In this document: positions 3,071-62,339 of the stretch, piece after piece | Numbering within the stretch: the first letter of the stretch is position 1 | How the letters are laid out: each line of letters starts with the position of its first letter | DNA from: a virus | IMG/VR virus record: IMGVR_UViG_3300040759_000032 | Span: 62,001 to 126,000 of that record | DNA: 64,000 bases | Direction: 5' to 3' (one strand) | The notes under the pieces: model-generated | Seen by the model: only the letters and a program-made list of their open reading frames with translations | The model's database searches: none | Told to the model about the DNA's origin: nothing | Translations under genes and position numbers: made by a program

Positions 3071-3654
3071 CGCAGGCCCGCTGTGATGTCATGCCGCACG
3101 CATCCCCGCCATGAACCGGGGAGATCGCCGCACGTGCACGCCGCGAGCGGCGTCGGGGCCTGAGTCGGCGGAACCCATCCCGCCGGCAGGTCCGCGTCGC
3201 ACCCCGGGCAGATCCACCCGACCGTCTCGGTGCTCCCCGAGGGGATGACGCGCTCCGCGTCCGCGTGGGCGCACCCGCCGAGGGCCGAGGCCAGGCGGGT
3301 CATGCCGACCGCCACGTCGGCCATGCTCACGCCGGCGACCGGGGGCCGCACCGTGACCGTCCCGTGCATCCGCAGCGCCGAGTAGTGCTTGAGGCAGCAG
3401 CCCCGGGCCACCGCCGGATCGTGGCAGAACTCCACCACGCACCCCCGCGCGCGGCCCCGCGGCCGCAGGCTCCGGATCCCCAGCGACAGCCGGACGACCA
3501 GCAGCAGGTCGAAGACGAGCAGGAGCACCGGGAGGATGACCGCGCCGGGTACCGCCACCAGGGCCAGCCAGATCGCGACAGCGCACCCGGAGGCCACGGC
3601 GACCGCGATCCACCTCAACGTGCGAAGCATGCCGATGTCCCGCCGGGCGCTCAC
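3067..3654 (-). CDS. Membrane protein with Cys-rich cytoplasmic or surface part
   Basis: About 195 residues from a GTG at 3654 (GGAGG immediately upstream; the frame extends to 3729). Two hydrophobic segments lie near the N-terminus (WIAVAVASGCAVAIWLALVAV and AVILPVLLLVFDLLLVV). They are followed by several Cys pairs (CVVEFC, CCLKH, CPGCDADL, CTCGDL) suggesting zinc binding. It is the first gene of a three-gene translationally coupled set with 2855 and 2199. Start uncertain. Confidence 0.6.
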   Translation of the reverse strand: MSARRDIGMLRTLRWIAVAVASGCAVAIWLALVAVPGAVILPVLLLVFDLLLVVRLSLGIRSLRPRGRARGCVVEFCHDPAVARGCCLKHYSALRMHGTVTVRPPVAGVSMADVAVGMTRLASALGGCAHADAERVIPSGSTETVGWICPGCDADLPAGWVPPTQAPTPLAACTCGDLPGSWRGCVRHDITAGLR

Positions 3655-3817
3655 CGCCTCCGCCTCTTCCCGCCGAGGGTCTCCGACATCCCCAGCCATC
3701 CCCGCCTGCCTACCCTGACGCCTCCCCATGCCCGTGCCCGGCCCTTGCCGACAGGGGCGCTCGCGCCGAGGCGGAACGGGCCGACGCGGACGCTCGCGCC
3801 TATCCTCGCGCGTGATC

Positions 3818-4102
3818 TCATGATCGCGGCCTCCGGTCCCAGTCCTCGACGCGAGCAGGAGTCGTGCGGAGGATCTCGGCCGCCTCGGCGGTTGAGACCT
3901 GCCGTGCGGCCTCGCCCGCGCTGACGCCGATCAGGGCCACGATGACCGGGCTCCCCGCCGGCAGGATCTCGGTGCACACCCGGGCGGACTTGCCGGTCTT
4001 CTCCCGCAGCGTCCACCAGGCCTCGCCCGGGTCGCCAGCCCAGACGAGGGCCGTCGCCCCGTCGGGCTCCCCGGCGATCTCGGTGAGCATCCAGAGCTTC
4101 AT
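3818..4102 (-). CDS. Hypothetical protein, 94 aa
   Basis: ATG at 4102 overlaps the TGA of the upstream ribbon-helix-helix-like gene. The N-terminal half resembles a small alpha/beta domain (KLWMLTEIAG, ALVWAGDPGEAWWTL). The C-terminal third (STAEAAEILRTTPARVEDW) looks like a short HTH-type helix pair. Third gene of the operon led from the promoter at 4650-4694. Confidence 0.6.
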   Translation of the reverse strand: MKLWMLTEIAGEPDGATALVWAGDPGEAWWTLREKTGKSARVCTEILPAGSPVIVALIGVSAGEAARQVSTAEAAEILRTTPARVEDWDRRPRS

Positions 4103-4278
4103 TTCTGGCCCTCCGTTGTCGTTGCCTGCTGCTCGACGTGCTTGCGGTACCGAGCGAGCGCCTCGTCGAGGATGACCTTGAGCGCCACGCCTCGCCGCGC
4201 GGCCTCAGCCCTTGCCCATGCCCCGAGCTCCGCTGGCGGGTGCCAGCAGAGCGTCGGGTTCTTGTGCTGGTTAGGCAT
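4099..4278 (-). CDS. Small ribbon-helix-helix-like DNA-binding protein
   Basis: A 59-residue protein encoded between two well-defined neighbours, with start and stop codons overlapping both (TGATG and ATGA). Its sequence (NPTLCWHPPAELGAWARAEAARRGVALKVILDEALARY) has the short strand plus two-helix pattern of ribbon-helix-helix repressors or antitoxins. It may bind the paired palindromes in the operon promoter; that is an inference from position. Confidence 0.6.
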   Translation of the reverse strand: MPNQHKNPTLCWHPPAELGAWARAEAARRGVALKVILDEALARYRKHVEQQATTTEGQK

Positions 4279-4634
4279 CAGTGCGAGTGCTGCTCTCGGT
4301 GGTGGGCGATCAGCCGCTCAGGGTCCTCGCTGGCGAGGAAAGCGGTCTGGTGCGCCCGCGCGAGGTGCTCGGCGAGCATGTCGCCCGCGAGGTCCCGGTG
4401 GTCCGCCGGGATGTAGTCGGGGCTGGCCTCGGCGGCGAGCTGCTCCCCGACTGAGGCGTAGGCGACGTCTGCGCCGACGGCCCACCATCCGGCGTCGCCT
4501 GCGAGTCGGCGCGGCTGCGGCTCGCGCAGGTCCCGTGCCAGCTTGCGGAGGTCGTTGAGAACGTCGGCGTTCGAGAGCCGCTCGTCGGCGGCGACCGTGA
4601 GTTGGATGTTGACGACGTGCGTGCGCGGGATCAT
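4278..4634 (-). CDS. Hypothetical protein, 118 aa, first gene of a three-gene operon
   Basis: ATG at 4634 was chosen because GGGAG lies 5 bases upstream; an in-frame GTG two codons earlier would bury that site. The protein starts with a beta strand (RTHVVNIQLTVAA), then helices and an ADVAYASVGEQLAAEA segment, and ends His-rich. It directly follows a strong promoter with two operators. Function not recognised. Confidence 0.6.
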   Translation of the reverse strand: MIPRTHVVNIQLTVAADERLSNADVLNDLRKLARDLREPQPRRLAGDAGWWAVGADVAYASVGEQLAAEASPDYIPADHRDLAGDMLAEHLARAHQTAFLASEDPERLIAHHREQHSH

Positions 4635-4649
4635 TCGCACTCCCTTCGG

Positions 4650-4694
4650 AGGTGGATGCCACCTAAGCTAACGCGGGTGGATGCCACCTGTCAA
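4650..4694 (-). promoter_or_regulatory. Promoter with paired palindromic operators
   Basis: On the minus strand a consensus -35 TTGACA (4689-4694) is followed after 17-18 bases by TAGCTT/TTAGCT (about 4665-4671). Two copies of GGTGGATGCCACCT (4651-4664 and 4676-4689, 25 bases apart) fill the spacer and the start-site region. Each copy is a GGTGG/CCACC palindrome with a 3-base centre. The layout is typical for repression by a dimeric regulator. Confidence 0.7.
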
Positions 4695-4778
4695 GCCGAG
4701 CCGGGCGAGCAACTCACCCACTCAAGCCTCGCCCGCCGATCGCGGCGCCTCCCGGGTCGCTAGCGCCAGCCGCGCCGG

Positions 4779-5009
4779 TCAGTGAAGCCGGTCAACCCGC
4801 TCGACCGTGATCACATCCTCGTCTACCGCGTACAGGACCCGGTAGGGGCCGACCCGGAGCCGGTGGTAGCCGCCACGGTGGAATCCCTCAGCCGGGAGCG
4901 GGTCCTCGGCCAGCGCCTCGATAGCCGCGTCGACTGCGCGCATCCCGGGCTGGTCGCGCATGTACCGGCGGGCGGACGCGAGCGCGCCCGCCGTCCACTC
5001 GACCGTCAC
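4779..5009 (-). CDS. RelE/ParE-type toxin
   Basis: A 76-residue protein from GTG at 5009, overlapping the antitoxin stop (GTGA). It matches the RelE fold: an N-terminal helix pair, a central GGYHRLRVGPYRVLYAVDED stretch and a terminal beta strand (VITVERVDRLH). RelE toxins cleave mRNA in the ribosome; ParE relatives act on gyrase. The basic RLRVGPYRVLY strand and C-terminal Arg/His fit a RelE role. In the usual order it follows its antitoxin. Confidence 0.85.
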   Translation of the reverse strand: MTVEWTAGALASARRYMRDQPGMRAVDAAIEALAEDPLPAEGFHRGGYHRLRVGPYRVLYAVDEDVITVERVDRLH

Positions 5010-5245
5010 CGGTCGAGGAGCAGCTCGGCCATCGCCTCCGCGTGCGACATCGCGCCGGGACGCCCGGCGGCCACCCACGCCTCATGCTGGGCGACGACCG
5101 CGTCCATCTCCGCTTCCTCGACCTCCTCAGCCGAGGCGCGGTCCCTCAGCGCCCTCAGGAGCCGGTACTCGTCGATGGGGACGACCACGGCGGTCTCATC
5201 CCCGAGGCGGATCACGTCATGGCCGTCGAGGGGCTGCGCGCTCAT
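5006..5245 (-). CDS. Phd/YefM-type antitoxin
   Basis: A 79-residue partner of the RelE-type toxin. The segment VIRLGDETAVVVPIDEYRLLRALRDR matches the Phd/YefM DNA-binding domain. The C-terminal half is acidic and helical, as expected for a toxin-neutralising tail. ATG at 5245 is given; an in-frame GTG three codons upstream is possible. An inverted repeat of TGCCG/CGGCA type around the start could be the autoregulatory operator. Confidence 0.8.
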   Translation of the reverse strand: MSAQPLDGHDVIRLGDETAVVVPIDEYRLLRALRDRASAEEVEEAEMDAVVAQHEAWVAAGRPGAMSHAEAMAELLLDR

Positions 5246-24008: not shown

Positions 24009-24491
24009 ATGGAGAAGGACCAGCAGGCTTACGACCTGTTCCGCCGGGGCCTGTCGTACCGGCAGATCGCCTCGCAGCTGGACTGGAAGTCGCAGAAGTC
24101 CGCGTTCGAGGCCGTGCGCCGAGCCGCCCGCGACAACGCCGCCGACCCCCTCGAGCAGGCGGAGGCACGGCAGGCGTTCTACGACCGGCTGCAGGACTAC
24201 CGGCGGGCCGCCCAGCGGGTCCTGTCGACGCGGCACTACGTCACGACCCAGACGGGGAACCTCGCGCACGGACCGGACGGGAGCCCGCTCCTCGACGACG
24301 ACCCGGTGCTGCGGGCGCTGGACCGGCTCGTGAAGATCGACGACATGGAACTGCGGCTGCGGGACCTGTACCCGGCGGCGAAGTCCCGCGTCGAGGTGAT
24401 CACTGAGGACGTGGTCGACGCGGAGATGGCGATGCTGGCCAGGCAGGTGGCGGAGAACGATGCCCGCGCCGCTGATTCTGGCGCCGCCTGA
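24009..24491 (+). CDS. terS: Terminase small subunit (putative)
   Basis: 160 residues. The N-terminal HTH (YDLFRRGLSYRQIASQLDWKSQKSAFEAVRRAARD) suits DNA recognition. The rest is helical with LLDDDPVLRALDRLVKIDDMELRLRDLYPAAK, as in actinophage small subunits. It overlaps the large subunit gene by 32 bases, the expected order. Confidence 0.75.
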   Translation: MEKDQQAYDLFRRGLSYRQIASQLDWKSQKSAFEAVRRAARDNAADPLEQAEARQAFYDRLQDYRRAAQRVLSTRHYVTTQTGNLAHGPDGSPLLDDDPVLRALDRLVKIDDMELRLRDLYPAAKSRVEVITEDVVDAEMAMLARQVAENDARAADSGAA

Positions 24492-27400
24492 GAAGATCCG
24501 GCGTCTGGCCGAGCTCCGGGCGAGGCTCCGCGAGCAGGAGGCCGAGCGGCGCAAGACCGAGGGCCCGCGGTGGGCGACGCCCGGCGAGCTCGCCAGGGCG
24601 ATCGACCCGGCGACGGTGCAGACGCCCGCGCTTGACCTGATCGACGAGGCGCTCGTGTGGGCGTACTCGACGCCCGGCGCGCGGCTCGCGGTGTCCATCG
24701 CACCTCAGGAAGGCAAGTCACAGAGAGTAACCAGAGTTGGCTCTCTGTGGGCGCTATCGCAGGATCCCGAGACGCGGATCGGCATCGCCTCCTACGCTCA
24801 GTCCCTCGCCGAGGGGTTCGGCCGCGACATCAGGAACATGATCGCGTCCAACAACGGCGACGAGGGCACGCTGGACATCGGGCTGCGCATCGCGGGCGAC
24901 TACGGGTCGGCGCGGCGCTGGCAGCTCGACGGGCACCGCGGCGGCGTTGTCTGCGTCGGAATCGGCTCCGGTCTAACCGGCCGCCCGCTGGACTGCATAG
25001 CGGGCGATTCCGGTATTATTACCCCTGATGGGGTGGTGTGCGCCGCCGACCTGGTAAAGGCGGAAACGCTCCCTCTCGTCCTGTCGTGGAACCACGGCAG
25101 CAGGCGTGCGGAGTGGCGGCAGGTCGAGGCCACGCGCACGATCCCCGGAAGAGAGATCGTTGAAGTCCGCACCGCCGCAGGCCGCGTCATCCGCTGCACT
25201 CCCGACCACCGCGTCTACGTCGCCGGACGCGGCTACGTTCCCGCCGCTGACCTGCGCGCCGGAGACCGTCTCGTCACTTCCGGCGCGAGTCCCGATCCTG
25301 TGCGGCGGATGCGGGACGGTCTTCACGAGGTTCCGGTCGGCCCTGAGGAACAACAAGCCGGGCACGCCCCTCTACTGCACGAAGGCGTGCCAGAACGCGT
25401 CGGCCAAGGTGGCGCTCACCTGCGAAGGCTGCGGCGGCGGCTACACGCGGATGCGATGCGAAGTGGACAAGGCCGCCAGGAACGGGTTCACGCGCTCGTT
25501 CTGCTCCAAGGCGTGCTTCCTGGGAACCCAGAGCGCCGAGTTCGCCGCGAAGAGGCCGTGCCTGACGTGCGGCAAGCCGAGGCCTCGCAAAGAAGACCGC
25601 TCCGACACGCGGTTCTGCTCCGACGAGTGCCGCCGGCAGTTCTTCACGGCGTCCGCGGACTGCGCCCACTGCGGCGCCTCATTCGAGATGCCGCGCTACG
25701 AGCTGGCGAAGAGGCGCAGGCGCGGCGGGAACGTGTACTGCTCCCAGCCGTGCGCCCGCGCCGGCATCGCGGTGACGCTCACGAAGGCCACGTGCCAGGG
25801 ATGCGGCGCGAAGATGCCGCAGCCGTGGAACGGCCGACGGTACTGCTCGGACGAGTGCCGCGCAGCGCACGGGGCGGTAACCCGGACGCTCCCGGACCAG
25901 GTGTGCACGTCGTGCGGCGTGGTCTTCCGGCCGAAGACCGGCCGGACGGGATACTGCTCCCGCGAGTGCGCCGACTCCGCGCACTCCGCCCGGATGACCG
26001 GCCCCGGGAACTCCCACTTCGTGGACGGCACCAGCTACGCGGACTGGTTCCGCAAGATGCGCCCGCTGATCATCGAGCGGGACGGCGGAGTCTGCGCCGC
26101 CTGCAAGACCTGCCCGCCGCCGACGAGGTACAAGCGCAACGGGGTCCCGGCCGAGAGAAGCTCGCTGCTCGTGCACCACATCAACGAGACGCCGGCGGAC
26201 AACAGGCCGCAGAACCTGATAACGCTCTGCAAGACCTGCCACATGATCCACCACAAGTCGAAGGCGACGCCGTTTCCGTGGTTCGCCGCATACGCGGCGA
26301 GCGCCACACGGTGTATGACCTCCAAGTGGAAGGCAACCGCAACTTCTTTGCAGACCAGGTACTCGTCCACAACTGCCTGATCATCGATGACCCGTTCGCG
26401 GACGCCGAGCAGGCGGGAAGCGCCTACTACCGCGACCGCGTGTGGGACTGGTGGAGGTCAGTCGGGGCGCCCCGCCTCGCTCCCGCCGCCCCCGCGATCC
26501 TGATCAACACCCGCTGGCACGAGGACGACCTCACAGGCCGGATGCTCGCCGCCGAGGACGGCCACCGCTGGCGCGCGATCAACATCCCGGCCCTCGCCGA
26601 CCACAAGCCGGAGCTCGGCCAGTCCGACCCGCTCGGCCGGGAGCCCGGCGAATGGCTGACCTCCGCCCGGGGCCGCACGCCGGCCCAGTGGGAGCAGATC
26701 CGGATCCAGGCCGGGTCGCGTGTCTTCGCCAGCCTGTACCAGGGCAGGCCGTCCCCGGACCAGGGGAACGTCTGGCAGCGGCAGTGGTGGCGCCGCTACC
26801 AGGAGCCGCTGTGGTCGCAGCACCCCACGACGCCGGAAGCGTGGCTCGTCCACGACGCCGACGAGGTCCTCATCTCGGTTGACTGCGCGTTCAAGGACAC
26901 GAAATCATCCGACTTCGTCGTCATGCAGACGTGGGCGCGGCGCGGCGCGATGGCGTACCTCGTCGACCAGGTACGCAAGCGCCTCTCGTTCACCGACACC
27001 GTGACGGCGCTCCTCGCGCTGATCGCCAAGTGGCCGCAGGCGTCCCGGAAGCTCATCGAGGACAAGGCCAACGGCACCGCGGTCATAAGCTCGCTGAAGT
27101 CCAAGGTCCCCGGCCTGGTGCCCGTCAACCCGACGGACTCCAAGTACGGGCGGGCGACAGCGGTCGCGCCGTTCATCGAGTCGGGGAACGTGCTGCTGCC
27201 CGCGGCGGGCGTGGGCCTGTTCGACCCCTCGGAGCTGATCGAGGAAGCGGCCGGGTTCCCGAACGCAGCGCACGACGACCAGGTCGACACCACGTCGCAG
27301 GCTCTCGCGGAGATGTTCTTGGACGGGAACGGCGCCGCAGCTTGGATCGCGTGGGCGAAGCGCAAGGCCGAGGCCGTCGCGACGGGGCACGTTGCCGAGT

Positions 27401-27531
27401 CGCAGTCGGCCCCGAAAGCCCCCGCCGTGCCGGAGGCCGCCCCGGACCCCGAGCCCCCTCCCGCCCCCCTCGATCCTGCTGCGGCGCTGAGGGCGGCCAG
27501 GACCGCGATGTTCCGCCAGCAGGGCCGCTAG
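24460..27531 (+). CDS. terL: Terminase large subunit with intein
   Basis: The frame codes 1023 residues, 563 after removal of a 460-residue intein (179-638). The N-extein has the ATPase part with a deviant Walker A (SIAPQEGKSQ) and IGIASYAQSLAEGFGRD. The exteins join as GRPLD-CLIIDDPFAD, rebuilding Walker B. The C-part has the INTRWHEDDLTGRML ATPase-coupling region and an RNase H-like nuclease with DCAFKDTKSSDF and HDDQVDTTSQAL. It packages DNA through the portal. ATG at 24460 gives the usual N-terminal length. Confidence 0.92.
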   Translation: MPAPLILAPPEKIRRLAELRARLREQEAERRKTEGPRWATPGELARAIDPATVQTPALDLIDEALVWAYSTPGARLAVSIAPQEGKSQRVTRVGSLWALSQDPETRIGIASYAQSLAEGFGRDIRNMIASNNGDEGTLDIGLRIAGDYGSARRWQLDGHRGGVVCVGIGSGLTGRPLDCIAGDSGIITPDGVVCAADLVKAETLPLVLSWNHGSRRAEWRQVEATRTIPGREIVEVRTAAGRVIRCTPDHRVYVAGRGYVPAADLRAGDRLVTSGASPDPVRRMRDGLHEVPVGPEEQQAGHAPLLHEGVPERVGQGGAHLRRLRRRLHADAMRSGQGRQERVHALVLLQGVLPGNPERRVRREEAVPDVRQAEASQRRPLRHAVLLRRVPPAVLHGVRGLRPLRRLIRDAALRAGEEAQARRERVLLPAVRPRRHRGDAHEGHVPGMRREDAAAVERPTVLLGRVPRSARGGNPDAPGPGVHVVRRGLPAEDRPDGILLPRVRRLRALRPDDRPRELPLRGRHQLRGLVPQDAPADHRAGRRSLRRLQDLPAADEVQAQRGPGREKLAARAPHQRDAGGQQAAEPDNALQDLPHDPPQVEGDAVSVVRRIRGERHTVYDLQVEGNRNFFADQVLVHNCLIIDDPFADAEQAGSAYYRDRVWDWWRSVGAPRLAPAAPAILINTRWHEDDLTGRMLAAEDGHRWRAINIPALADHKPELGQSDPLGREPGEWLTSARGRTPAQWEQIRIQAGSRVFASLYQGRPSPDQGNVWQRQWWRRYQEPLWSQHPTTPEAWLVHDADEVLISVDCAFKDTKSSDFVVMQTWARRGAMAYLVDQVRKRLSFTDTVTALLALIAKWPQASRKLIEDKANGTAVISSLKSKVPGLVPVNPTDSKYGRATAVAPFIESGNVLLPAAGVGLFDPSELIEEAAGFPNAAHDDQVDTTSQALAEMFLDGNGAAAWIAWAKRKAEAVATGHVAESQSAPKAPAVPEAAPDPEPPPAPLDPAAALRAARTAMFRQQGR
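24994..26373 (+). other. Terminase intein (splicing halves in the host frame)
   Basis: The intein begins at Cys (24994) with CIAGDSGIITPDGVVCAADL (block A). It has block B TPDHRVYVAGRGYVPAADLRAGDRLV and ends with block F/G (GERHTVYDLQVEGNRNFFADQVLVHN), followed by extein Cys at 26374. Between about 25285 and 26265 the host frame reads an Arg/Pro-rich sequence without family features. The +1 frame there encodes a zinc-ribbon HNH nuclease. No stop interrupts the host frame, so a continuous precursor can be made. Confidence 0.85.
25160..26380 (+). CDS. HNH endonuclease with six zinc ribbons, in +1 frame inside the intein
   Basis: In the +1 frame relative to terL, six ribbons of the form CxxC...CxxxC follow each other (CGGC/CTKAC, CEGC/CSKAC, CLTC/CSDEC, CAHC/CSQPC, CQGC/CSDEC, CTSC/CSREC). 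An HNH domain follows (LIIERDGGVCAACKTC, LLVHHINETPADNRPQNLITLCKTCHMIHH). The frame opens at a GTG (25106). TTG at 25160 has GGAAGAGAG upstream and is given as start. The last 40 codons overlap the intein C-terminal splicing block. It could be an independent homing nuclease or need frameshifting to join the intein. Confidence 0.75.
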   Translation: MKSAPPQAASSAALPTTASTSPDAATFPPLTCAPETVSSLPARVPILCGGCGTVFTRFRSALRNNKPGTPLYCTKACQNASAKVALTCEGCGGGYTRMRCEVDKAARNGFTRSFCSKACFLGTQSAEFAAKRPCLTCGKPRPRKEDRSDTRFCSDECRRQFFTASADCAHCGASFEMPRYELAKRRRRGGNVYCSQPCARAGIAVTLTKATCQGCGAKMPQPWNGRRYCSDECRAAHGAVTRTLPDQVCTSCGVVFRPKTGRTGYCSRECADSAHSARMTGPGNSHFVDGTSYADWFRKMRPLIIERDGGVCAACKTCPPPTRYKRNGVPAERSSLLVHHINETPADNRPQNLITLCKTCHMIHHKSKATPFPWFAAYAASATRCMTSKWKATATSLQTRYSSTTA

Positions 27532-27546
27532 CTGACAGGAGTCCGC

Positions 27547-27807
27547 GTGGCCGACGAGCAGCCGCCCGTTTTCGAGACGGACGGCCAGTGGCCGTTTTCC
27601 GGGACCGTGAAGGTGAACGGGCACCCGCTCGCGTCCGTCTCTTCCTGGTCCGTCTCCGCCGCCTCCGACGGAGTCCCGGTCGTCACGCTCGGCCTCGTCG
27701 ACCAGGGGGCGCTGAGGCTGCTCCTCGGGCCCGGCGCCCGGGTGCAGGTTTCCGACGCGACCCGTGACGCCCTCATCTCCCTCGGCTGGACCCCTCCGGC
27801 AGGCTGA
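27547..27807 (+). CDS. Small virion-module protein, 86 aa
   Basis: GTG at 27547 with CAGGAG 5 bases upstream. A beta-rich protein (QWPFSGTVKVNGHPLASVSSWSVSA, VPVVTLGLVDQGALRLLLGPGARVQV) found between terminase and portal. Small proteins of this kind occur in this position in actinophages. Role unknown. Confidence 0.6.
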   Translation: MADEQPPVFETDGQWPFSGTVKVNGHPLASVSSWSVSAASDGVPVVTLGLVDQGALRLLLGPGARVQVSDATRDALISLGWTPPAG

Positions 27808-27862
27808 CGGCCGCGAACGGCACCAAGAACGGCCGCCGAGCGGCGCGCGGGGAGGGCACCGC

Positions 27863-30800
27863 ATGAGCGTCCGATCCCGAGCCGCCGTCCTCGACGCCCC
27901 GGCCGTCCAGGTCGCAAAGGTGTTCGGTCCGGGGGTCCCGCCGGCGATCCGGGCGGCCGAGGCCGAGGCGCAGATGACGCCGACGTCCCCGTTCGGCCCC
28001 GGCACGCCGATCGGCCCGTACGACGGGTACTCGCGGCAGCCGCGCAGCCAGAACTTCGTGACCGGGGTCAACATCTCGACCCGGCCGCGGACCCACGAGC
28101 GCGTCAGCTTCGAGACGCTCGTGGGATTGATAAACGCCTACGACATCGCCCAGATAGCCATCTGGCATCGCATCGACTCCATTAGGTCGCTCGACTGGCG
28201 CCTCATTCCGGCCGCGCATTTCCAGGGCGACGCGACTGACGCCATCCGCATCGGGACTAAGGCGCTCAAGAAGCCGGACCGGATCAACTCGTTCAGCTCA
28301 TGGCTGGCGAAATGGCTATTCGACGTCCTCGCCTATGACGCGGGAGCGCTTTACCGGCTGCGGAACCGGGCCGGGCGCTGTATTGGGCTTCTCCCGGTTG
28401 ACGGCACGACGATCGCGCCGATGCTCGATTACTGGGGCAATCCGCCTGGCGCGATGGCCGCCCCCGGCGAGGAACTGCCCGAGGCGTTCGTCCAGTACGT
28501 CAACGGGCTGCCGTGGAACTGGCTGACGCTCGCCGATCTGGTCTACCAGCCGTTCCGGCCGCGCACCAACTCCCCGTACGGCCATGCGCCGCTTGAGTCG
28601 ATAATCCTCAACGCGAACACCGATATTCGCTTCCAGCTCTTTTTCCTTCAGCGTTTTACTGAAGGAAACATTCCGGAGGCGTTCGCCGCCGCCCCGGAAA
28701 CATGGTCCCCCGATCAGATAGAGCAGTTCCAGGAATACTGGGACGGCTTCATGTACGGCGACCAGTCGCGGAAGCACCAGATTCGGTGGATGCCCGGCGG
28801 CTCGAAATTCGCGTGGTCCAACGAGAAGGACTTCAGCGACACCTTCTCGCTGTTCCTGATGCGGAAGACGCTCGCCGCGTATCACACAGTCCCGGCCGAC
28901 GTCGGATTCACCGAAAACGTGAACAAATCGTCCGGCGAAAGCCAGGCTGACGTGCAGCACCGCGTCGGCGAGCTCCCTCTCGACGCCTATGTCGAGGCGA
29001 TCCTGACGGACTTCCTCCAAGACGACCTGGGCCTGCCGGTCGAGTTCGAGTTCGACAAGGGCGAGGAGCAGGACGACCGCCTCGCCGTCGCGCAAGCGCA
29101 CGAGATCTACATCCGCAACGCCGTGATCGGGGCGTCCGAAGTCCGCGAGGAGGTCTTCGGCCTCCCCGAGCCGGACGGCCAGGTCGTGCCCCGCGGGTTC
29201 TTCACCGAGCGTTCCGGGCTCATCCCGCTCAACTCGGTGCTCGCCGTCGCAGGGCCGATCGACCCCGCCACGGCCGCCCCGGAACCGGGGTCGCCCCTGC
29301 CGCACATGGTGTTCGGCGGCGTCGAGGGCGTGCTCCCCAACCCGCCGATCAAGGTCCCGAGCCTCGCCGAGCAGGAGTACGGGCCGTCGGCGATGCCGCC
29401 CGCCCCGCCGCCGCAGCCGAAGATGACCGACGCCGACGCGACCCCGGAACTGACTGCGGGCGCGGTCGCCAAGGAAGGCGAGGGCGCGGGCGGGAACGTC
29501 ACGGCGGGCATCACCGCGGCGACGGGCCTGTACTCCTACGACCTCGACGGCAGGGGCGGCGACGAGGACGAGGATGACGGCCCGGTCGGCCAGGCGGTGA
29601 TCGCGAAGGAGATGCAGGCGTTCCGCCGGTACTCAAGGGCGCGCAGGCGCTCGGGAGAGTGGCGGGACTTCGAGTTCCGGGCGGTCGCCAAGGTCGCCGG
29701 CCACAACCTGAACGACTCCGGCCGCCTCGCTGTCCGCAAGGACGCCGGGCAGGTGGCTGTCGCAGGGCTGGCTGTTCTCGCCGCGGACACAGGCCGCGTG
29801 CTGATGATCCAGCGGGCGCTTGACGACAGCGACCCTGCGGCCGGTACCTGGGAAGTGCCAGGCGGCCATCTGGAAGGCGCGGAGACGCCCCTCCATGGTG
29901 CGTGGCGCGAGTGGTCAGAGGAGTGCGGCGTAGCACCCCCGCCGGGCACTCAGACAGGCTCGTGGGCATCTCCGGACGGGATCTACCAGGGCATCGTGTG
30001 GACGGTCGACAGCGAGGCTCTCGTCCCGGTTCGCTCGGACACGCAGATCAGCAACCCCGATGACCCCGACGGCGACTCAATCGAGGCAATCGCCTGGTGG
30101 GACCCGGAGACGCTGCCGGGCAACCCGGCGGTGCGCCCCGAGCTGCTCGCGAACATCGATGACGTGATGGCCGCCCTCGGCTACGGCGTGACGGACGACG
30201 CCGAGGCGGAAGAGGTGGCCAAGGCGGCCGGTGGTTCAGGCCCAAAAGGGCCCGCCTGGCACGGGTGGACGCTCGACCGGAAGACGGCCGCGCACTGGGC
30301 CCCGAGGGTCCGCGACTCGGTTAAGGCGGCGGTCCCGAAGGCGAAGGCCCGCGACATGGGCCGTGACTACCTCGCTGATCACCCCGAGCAGGACGGGTCC
30401 GCCCCGGGCAAGCGGGACCGGAACAAGGCCGCCGCGGCGTGGGTCCTCGCCTGGCTGGCCAGCCACGGCATCACCCTCGTCCCGTCGTCGACGGCTGAGG
30501 CGATCGCGGTCGACGGGTACGCGATAGGCGCGGTCTCCGCTCAGCATCAGGTCACCGGGCAGCCGCCGGGGAAGACCGCTCCGGGCGGCCGGGACTCCGC
30601 CTTCGACCGGGTCGGGGAGGCCGGGCTGGCCGCCGAGCTCGCCCTGCTGCTGCGCGGAGGGAACGGCGCCGAGGCCGCCGCCGAGATCGTCGCTGAGGCG
30701 ATCGCCGGCGGGTACGCGAACGCGCTGGCGATCATCCTCGCCGGGACGGACGCGGACTGGGCGGACAGCCAGGACACCCTCGACGAGCTCGGGGACCTGC

Positions 30801-31075
30801 TGTCAGACGCGCTCGCCGACGAGGACACCGCCGTGACGCTCGTCGGGACGCAGATCAACATCTACACCGGGCTGTCAGCGCACGACTACTACATGCAGAA
30901 CAGCGTGACCCTGGTGAACTGGGTCACCGACCCGTCGAAGTCCGGCGTCTGCCCGGTCTGCGTGGCGAACGAGGCGGCAAGCCCGCAGACGAACGGGCAG
31001 CCCTGGCCCAGCGGGGACGTCTCGCCGCCAGCGCACCCGAACTGCCGGTGCCAGTTGCTTCCGGCGTGGCTCTAG
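27863..31075 (+). CDS. Portal-NUDIX-head morphogenesis fusion protein
   Basis: 1070 residues from ATG at 27863 after GGGGAGGG. Residues about 50-520 are a phage portal (VGLINAYDIAQIAIWHRIDSIRSLDW, LLPVDGTTIAPMLDYWGN, FRPRTNSPYGHAPLESII, MRKTLAAYHTVPADVGFTENVNKSSGE). Residues about 627-770 are a NUDIX hydrolase with the complete box GHLEGAETPLHGAWREWSEECGV. Residues about 780-1070 are an SPP1 gp7/Mu F-like head protein ending DPSKSGVCPVCVANEAAS...HPNCRCQLLP. VAK motifs sit at residues about 17, 533, 604 and 783, at domain borders. The portal gates DNA; the role of the NUDIX part is unclear. Confidence 0.88.
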   Translation: MSVRSRAAVLDAPAVQVAKVFGPGVPPAIRAAEAEAQMTPTSPFGPGTPIGPYDGYSRQPRSQNFVTGVNISTRPRTHERVSFETLVGLINAYDIAQIAIWHRIDSIRSLDWRLIPAAHFQGDATDAIRIGTKALKKPDRINSFSSWLAKWLFDVLAYDAGALYRLRNRAGRCIGLLPVDGTTIAPMLDYWGNPPGAMAAPGEELPEAFVQYVNGLPWNWLTLADLVYQPFRPRTNSPYGHAPLESIILNANTDIRFQLFFLQRFTEGNIPEAFAAAPETWSPDQIEQFQEYWDGFMYGDQSRKHQIRWMPGGSKFAWSNEKDFSDTFSLFLMRKTLAAYHTVPADVGFTENVNKSSGESQADVQHRVGELPLDAYVEAILTDFLQDDLGLPVEFEFDKGEEQDDRLAVAQAHEIYIRNAVIGASEVREEVFGLPEPDGQVVPRGFFTERSGLIPLNSVLAVAGPIDPATAAPEPGSPLPHMVFGGVEGVLPNPPIKVPSLAEQEYGPSAMPPAPPPQPKMTDADATPELTAGAVAKEGEGAGGNVTAGITAATGLYSYDLDGRGGDEDEDDGPVGQAVIAKEMQAFRRYSRARRRSGEWRDFEFRAVAKVAGHNLNDSGRLAVRKDAGQVAVAGLAVLAADTGRVLMIQRALDDSDPAAGTWEVPGGHLEGAETPLHGAWREWSEECGVAPPPGTQTGSWASPDGIYQGIVWTVDSEALVPVRSDTQISNPDDPDGDSIEAIAWWDPETLPGNPAVRPELLANIDDVMAALGYGVTDDAEAEEVAKAAGGSGPKGPAWHGWTLDRKTAAHWAPRVRDSVKAAVPKAKARDMGRDYLADHPEQDGSAPGKRDRNKAAAAWVLAWLASHGITLVPSSTAEAIAVDGYAIGAVSAQHQVTGQPPGKTAPGGRDSAFDRVGEAGLAAELALLLRGGNGAEAAAEIVAEAIAGGYANALAIILAGTDADWADSQDTLDELGDLLSDALADEDTAVTLVGTQINIYTGLSAHDYYMQNSVTLVNWVTDPSKSGVCPVCVANEAASPQTNGQPWPSGDVSPPAHPNCRCQLLPAWL
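28642..28668. repeat. AT-rich perfect hairpin inside the portal gene
   Basis: TTTCCTTCAG (28642-28651) pairs perfectly with CTGAAGGAAA (28659-28668) over a 7-base loop (CGTTTTA). It lies in a locally AT-richer part of the gene. Confidence 0.55.
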
Positions 31076-61793: not shown

Positions 61794-62339
61794 ATGGCGC
61801 TGGCTGACCTGTCCGCGATCGCCGGGTTCCGCAAGCGCGGCCCGTGGCCTCCCGGCCAGACCCCTGACGAGTACACCTTCTGGGCGCCGGACGACGACCT
61901 GCACGGCGTACTGGTGACGATGGTCCGCTCCGCGGCCCACAGTCTCGTGCTCGCGATGTACGGGTTCGCCGACGACGAACTCGCGGCGGCGGTCCACGAC
62001 AGGCTCGACGACCCGGCTTGCTACGTGTCGCTGACGCTCGACTCGTCACAGGCCGGCGGGGTGCACGAGCGGGCGATCCTCGCCAAGTCGGGGTTCCCGT
62101 CGAACTCCGTCGCGATCGGGCAGAGCGAACGCCACCGGATCATGCACCTCAAGGTCGCCGTCATCGACGGAACCGACCGGGTCACCGGCTCGACGAACTG
62201 GTCCACGGCAGGCGAGTCGCTCCAGGACAACGAGCTGACCGTGCGCCGCGACCCGGTGAGGGCGGCGGACGCGCGCGCGAAGATCGACCTCATTCACGAG
62301 TCGATGCTGACCGCCGCCGCAGAGAAGGCGGCGAAGTGA
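61794..62339 (+). CDS. Phospholipase D-like nuclease (single HKD domain)
   Basis: 181 residues from ATG at 61794 with GAGGAGGCGGC upstream. The catalytic motif is HLKVAVID (HxKx4D) followed by TGSTNWSTAG and QDNELTV. LVTMVRSAAHSLVLAMYGFADDELAAAV is the N-terminal strand-helix of this fold. One motif means a dimeric enzyme, as in bacterial Nuc/PLD nucleases. It acts on phosphodiesters, possibly DNA or phospholipid. Confidence 0.88.
   Translation: MALADLSAIAGFRKRGPWPPGQTPDEYTFWAPDDDLHGVLVTMVRSAAHSLVLAMYGFADDELAAAVHDRLDDPACYVSLTLDSSQAGGVHERAILAKSGFPSNSVAIGQSERHRIMHLKVAVIDGTDRVTGSTNWSTAGESLQDNELTVRRDPVRAADARAKIDLIHESMLTAAAEKAAK

Follow-up and report, generated by a model that had tools for sequence, protein, structure and literature searches.

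A candidate terminase intein that shares its DNA with an HNH endonuclease gene in another reading frame

Inteins are usually presented as single polypeptides that carry both a splicing and a nuclease domain. In the fractured genes reportedly described by Dassa and colleagues in 2009, split inteins are interrupted by a free-standing endonuclease gene. The viral locus considered here, in the gene for the large terminase subunit (TerL), likewise has an endonuclease gene between two intein halves, but here the host gene has no break, and the overlapping nuclease is read in a different frame. The locus lies in a stretch of 64,000 nucleotides from IMG/VR record IMGVR_UViG_3300040759_000032 (positions 62,001 to 126,000; hereafter the window, whose own numbering is used throughout), and we consider it very probable that it is a TerL intein at the Walker B motif, with its homing endonuclease encoded by a distinct gene that overlaps it in the +1 frame.

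Among the known TerL inteins, the mycobacteriophage TerL1-b and TerL1-c are canonical bifunctional elements with an in-frame LAGLIDADG endonuclease (PMC5050341). The present element has in common with them a Hint domain in TerL, a mobile character and a nuclease between blocks B and F, but its nuclease is of the HNH type, lies in another frame and is, as we propose, a separate protein. Inteins at Walker B are also known, and one of them, TerL1-e of phage Gaia, has been shown to splice (PMC5050341). We considered Gaia as evidence for splicing of the present element and set it aside as an intein of a different kind, with a LAGLIDADG-like sequence in the terL frame between its splicing blocks and no out-of-frame open reading frame (ORF) of at least 120 amino acids listed there. 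Out-of-frame HNH genes have been described in phage DNA methylase genes (the ShiLan domain and the Pacc40 insertion; Arsenault, Gosselin and Gogarten, PMC11855218) and in gp54/gp55 of Applejack (PMC12613952). The ShiLan and Applejack cases resemble ours in having a zinc-finger HNH gene off-frame within an open host gene, and separate translation and homing have been proposed for them. The ShiLan insertion, however, has no splicing domain and is retained in its host protein, and it differs in host gene, site and frame (the third); the TerL element, by contrast, has a complete Hint domain, an intein that would excise the off-frame filler and leave an essential protein free of it. Zinc ribbons are also found in HNH homing endonucleases of the I-HmuI type (PHROG 1271), both intron-encoded and free-standing, but here the coding DNA is shared with an intein. 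In the literature that we searched, no out-of-frame nuclease within a true intein is described; bioRxiv 2025.01.02.630785, a preprint about the architecture of actinophage inteins, fell outside that search and may anticipate part of what follows. What the present analysis adds is the spread beyond actinophages, tests of selection and a second origin.

The features of the locus, which was singled out in an earlier note made from the sequence of the window, are as follows.

24460-27531, plus strand: TerL precursor ORF (exteins and intein), 1023 amino acids, stop-free; Terminase_6C 5e-14, PHROG 38 3e-92
24460-24993, plus strand: TerL N-extein, last residues LTGRPLD
24994-25284, plus strand: N-terminal splicing half of the intein, blocks A and B (Cys1, TxxH); AlphaFold predicted local distance difference test (pLDDT) 93-98 over residues 1-90
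25147-25155, plus strand: weak Shine-Dalgarno-like GGAAGAGAG ahead of TTG 25160
25160-26380, plus strand: HNH endonuclease gene, terL+1 frame, proposed TTG start, 406 amino acids, stop at 26378-26380
25285-26250, plus strand: terL-frame filler, the off-frame reading of the HNH gene, 322 codons; predicted disordered, without selection at the protein level
25301-26047, plus strand: six CxxC...CxxxC zinc ribbons of the HNH protein
26048-26257, plus strand: HNH nuclease domain (HH...N...H, invariant in 25 relatives)
26251-26373, plus strand: C-terminal splicing half of the intein, blocks F and G (VYDLQVEG...VHN), followed by the +1 Cys
26374-27528, plus strand: TerL C-extein, beginning C-LIIDDP (Walker B)

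The intein as a whole occupies 24994-26373 (1380 bases, residues 1-460), and its four splicing blocks are intact in the terL frame, where the earlier note had placed them: Cys1 at 24994, TPDH in block B, VYDLQVEGNRNFFA in block F and VHN in block G, after which come the +1 Cys and the IIDDP of the TerL Walker B motif. The splicing domains are recognised by Pfam (Intein_splicing, 1.7e-13) and NCBIfam (intein_Nterm, 6e-9; intein_Cterm, 1.7e-5), and Cys1, TPDH and VHN|C are invariant or nearly so in 19 relatives, although the terminal His of the intein is replaced by Leu in cyanophages. Given alignments of the terL-frame intein, AlphaFold put residues 1-90 and roughly 421-460 above a pLDDT of 90 and most of residues 99-416 below 50, and Foldseek matched the Hint part of the model to solved inteins (best 4.9e-7). 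The insertion point lies in a conserved motif, just before IIDDP, and homologues without an intein exist: in Glutamicibacter phage BIM BV-113 TerL is continuous at the site, with the sequence LTGRAVD|ALFIDDP. No Pfam nuclease match was found in the terL-frame filler between blocks B and F, where a bifunctional intein would carry one. Its motifs and position mark the insert as a class-1-like intein of the TerL Walker B site, which protein splicing would remove.

The nuclease is found in the +1 frame, where six ribbons and an HNH domain had been noticed earlier; its product matches the PHROG 1271 HNH endonucleases at 8.7e-34, and H339, H340, N352, H361, H365 and the zinc-binding Cys residues are invariant in 25 sequences. 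This frame is open upstream to 25058 (intein nucleotide 65), with an alternative GTG at 25106, and it ends within the first codons of the C-extein. The terL frame does remain open across the whole HNH gene, as had been claimed, but the filler comprises about 322 codons (25285-26250) and not about 325. AlphaFold models residues 43-403 of the HNH product as folded (mean pLDDT 78.8) and the first 40 or so as disordered, so that one stretch of DNA is predicted to encode two folds, that of a Hint domain when read in terL and that of a nuclease with several ribbons when read in +1.

This arrangement is not peculiar to the window. A tblastn search retrieved Gordonia phage Clown and Synechococcus phage S-EIV1. 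In these two phages, as in the IMG/VR contigs L007 and L008, TerL has the intein blocks and is uninterrupted, and the HNH gene is read in its +1 frame. A search with the HNH alignment added L009-L024 (IMG/VR) and L034 (a Methanosaeta bin), with the same +1 relation and an open terL frame covering 100% of the HNH gene. An independent search in the terL frame, with the intein C-terminus and C-extein and hence unbiased as to the frame of the nuclease, yielded the same-site inteins L041-L069. Among the matches listed, 19 have a multi-ribbon HNH in the +1 frame, one has a shortened HNH (L057), three are cut by contig ends, five are mini-inteins (L047, L055, L058, L062 and L068) and none has an in-frame nuclease; by the earlier note, close relatives with the HNH in frame would have pointed to frameshift errors or mutations. 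Altogether, the identical +1 frame under an open terL is shared by at least about 36 distinct relatives with G+C contents of 35-71%, which come from several lineages of phages and, in one case, from an archaeal contig. Two of the mini-intein carriers have another intein at the Walker A site of TerL: that of L055 has an in-frame LAGLIDADG_3 match, and that of L058 is similar by inspection.

A stop codon in the terL frame requires an HNH codon ending in T before a codon beginning with AA, AG or GA. Across 16 loci, none of the 865 codons in that position ends in T, versus 611 of 2812 (22%) before other codons. Synonymous shuffling of the HNH codons predicts 6-14 terL stops in 11 of these loci and all 16 have none, whereas the third frame has the expected number; in a second set of 19 loci up to 17.6 were expected and again every one has zero. 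The two frames also evolve differently. In six cyanophage sequences, substitutions fall at terL position 3 in the exteins and in intein nucleotides 1-120, are few at the sites of both frames over 121-240, lie mainly at HNH position 3 over 241-930 and then return to terL position 3. Measured in both frames of the same DNA, as the earlier note had advised, the Nei-Gojobori ratio of non-synonymous to synonymous differences (pN/pS) is 0.29 for HNH and 1.27 for terL (exteins, 0.08-0.15), and the window compared with L007 gives omega values of 0.32 and 1.86, respectively. Selection thus preserves the nuclease at the protein level, whereas all that it preserves of the filler is an open frame. Conserved architecture, stop avoidance and selection in both frames are established by these data. 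Together with the second family described below, the relatives show that selection maintains the double use of this DNA, which does not stem from errors of sequencing.

As to how the nuclease would be made, we scanned 23 non-redundant loci for starts preceded by a Shine-Dalgarno sequence with a pairing energy of -4.5 kcal/mol or better. Within intein nucleotides 146-182 such starts occur in the HNH frame of 12 of the 23 loci, in the terL frame of two and in the third frame of none; examples are aaggaaggagtttactgATG in L046 and acgaaggagagggagtcgaATG in L049, and in L056 the sole start is an ATG at nucleotide 146. In the clade of the window the equivalent start is a TTG at intein nucleotides 164-179; rare AGA/AGG Arg codons form a purine-rich stretch in six of its six loci, and a stronger GGGAG or GAGAGGGAG stands at the same place in L007, L004, L009, L010 and L051. 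A second group of possible starts is found at nucleotides 236-307. Furthermore, in L024, L044, L034 and L051 the HNH frame has stop codons upstream of the putative start. That of L044 is near block B, close upstream of a start preceded by a Shine-Dalgarno sequence; that of L024 is just ahead of a GTG with AAAGGAG, and we therefore rejected the idea that L024 has a broken HNH gene. Since these starts lie inside the element in many loci and the upstream stops interrupt the HNH frame, separate internal initiation is the best explanation of HNH expression.

The following mechanism is proposed. Ribosomes from the TerL start would translate the terL frame across the entire element, and the two Hint halves would fold around the disordered filler of 322 residues and splice it out to give TerL. 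Other ribosomes would initiate inside the intein (in the window probably at TTG 25160) and produce the six-ribbon HNH nuclease as a free protein; its targets would be TerL genes without the intein, cut near the codons for Walker B, and repair would then copy the element in. Selection for TerL purges every terL-frame stop by way of the wobble bases of the nuclease gene, and selection for the nuclease shapes the rest.

Several points weigh against this picture. Splicing, cutting and homing are steps that we infer, and the HNH model found no significant whole-protein match to the PDB in the structure search. In the window the proposed start is weak (TTG 25160, Shine-Dalgarno pairing -3.8 kcal/mol), no clear start is seen in L052, L054 or L014, and the dual constraint in the cyanophages begins near nucleotide 121, ahead of the TTG at nucleotide 167, which makes the start there uncertain. 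The open terL frame of the window is itself uninformative because, at a third-position G+C content (GC3) of 0.95, only 0.16 stops are expected in shuffles and the frame could be open by chance; its significance comes from the lower-GC relatives. A weak start and an HNH frame open back to intein nucleotide 65 would favour programmed +1 frameshifting into a fusion of TerL-N, intein-N and HNH with the internal start left unused, and it is consistent with this that HNH is always terL+1. Nevertheless, the starts within the element and the upstream HNH-frame stops described above argue against frameshifting, and no common slippery site was noticed by eye, no systematic motif search having been made; we regard this alternative, which had been raised in the earlier note, as unlikely.

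That note's other alternative, an ordinary in-frame HNH intein split by two compensating indels or sequencing errors, would look identical in a single sequence, but the same frame relation recurs in independently assembled sequences, at least about 36 distinct loci among which are the finished genomes of Clown and S-EIV1; the relatives refute it, and it can be given practically no weight. It is very improbable that HNH is a functionless passenger in an insert that persists solely as an intein: same-site mini-inteins and the shortened HNH of L057 would fit such a view, but the HNH frame is under purifying selection and its HNH and Cys residues are invariant across 25 divergent proteins. A self-splicing RNA intron with only an incidental Hint similarity is brought to mind by the many HNH ORFs of phage group I introns. 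All the splicing blocks and the +1 Cys are conserved, however, the terL frame is open throughout, and no Rfam match, and so no group I or II ribozyme core, was obtained at E<=0.1 in 24400-27000, so this explanation is scarcely credible. The comparative evidence favours a separately made HNH nuclease nested out of frame with splicing still possible, as originally suggested, and same-site mini-inteins such as L047 make it plausible that a nuclease gene invaded a mini-intein.

With respect to mobility, the Hint, HNH and extein distances correlate overall (Mantel r 0.83-0.86), implying long co-inheritance. Some pairs are nevertheless closer in intein and HNH than in their exteins; L054, for example, has a Hint value of 0.58 to L042 and 0.37 for its best extein match. 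Between the window and L007, intein nucleotides 91-1350 (about 25084-26343) are far less diverged than the exteins and intein nucleotides 1-90, which suggests that the nuclease part of this intein was exchanged more recently. Homing of the element is plausible.

A second intein site in TerL follows the nuclease domain and is close to the C-terminus, at the motif (H/S)N|(C/S)xD.xRY. Here a different, HNH_3-type endonuclease is found in the +2 frame beneath an open terL frame. Its carriers are the IMG/VR contigs L081, L082 and L083, Rhodobacteraceae phage LS06-2018-MD07 (L121, OP947163), Tetrasphaera phage TJE1 (L122, NC_019930), Acinetobacter phage Highwayman (L123, OZ038341) and MT838676 (L125); the annotated records say just "terminase large subunit" or "large terminase". 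Low-GC members have no stops against 3-4 expected (P 0.0003-0.004), whereas in the high-GC L121 and L122 the deficit is not individually significant. Since site, frame and nuclease family all differ, these sequences point to the same solution having arisen independently. In Brevundimonas phage Poludnitsa (L124, ON529862) a free-standing HNH of this family, a match without an annotated gene, directly follows an intein-less TerL.

Such dual-coded inteins may make up a general class of mobile element that is ancient, has evolved repeatedly and, annotated as plain terminases, has gone undescribed; its off-frame homing endonuclease gene would be protected because any stop in the splicing frame would kill an essential host gene. 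On this broader proposal, which would cover at least two TerL sites (+1 and +2, with unrelated HNH types) and viruses of Actinobacteria, Cyanobacteria, Proteobacteria and probably archaea, we find the case evenly balanced. When splicing and nuclease functions share DNA but not a frame, each can be separately made, regulated and lost. The elements suggest a low-cost route for a nuclease gene into an essential gene. They also form a large natural system of overlapping genes, with overlaps of about 200-320 codons in dozens of distinct sequences, where selection in two frames is directly measurable, and they resemble engineered gene entanglement, where selection holds the frame of one gene open over another. 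As a warning to annotators, a gene in another frame may be concealed in oversized terminases and in inteins classed as "mini" or "degenerate".

Off-frame HNH genes were also encountered outside inteins. In L030 an HNH gene (3755-4387) lies in the +1 frame of an N6/N4 DNA methylase ORF (3367-5154), a ShiLan-like arrangement without an intein, and the host frame has no stops against 6.2 expected. In L028 an HNH gene (4004-4627) with its own AAGGAGG and ATG is overlapped by a same-strand open frame of 836 amino acids, locally methyltransferase-like in sequence and with no Pfam match. Finally, the window has at 27764-31075 a portal ORF of 1103 amino acids, in which a NUDIX domain (Pfam, 2.8e-14) follows the portal domain.
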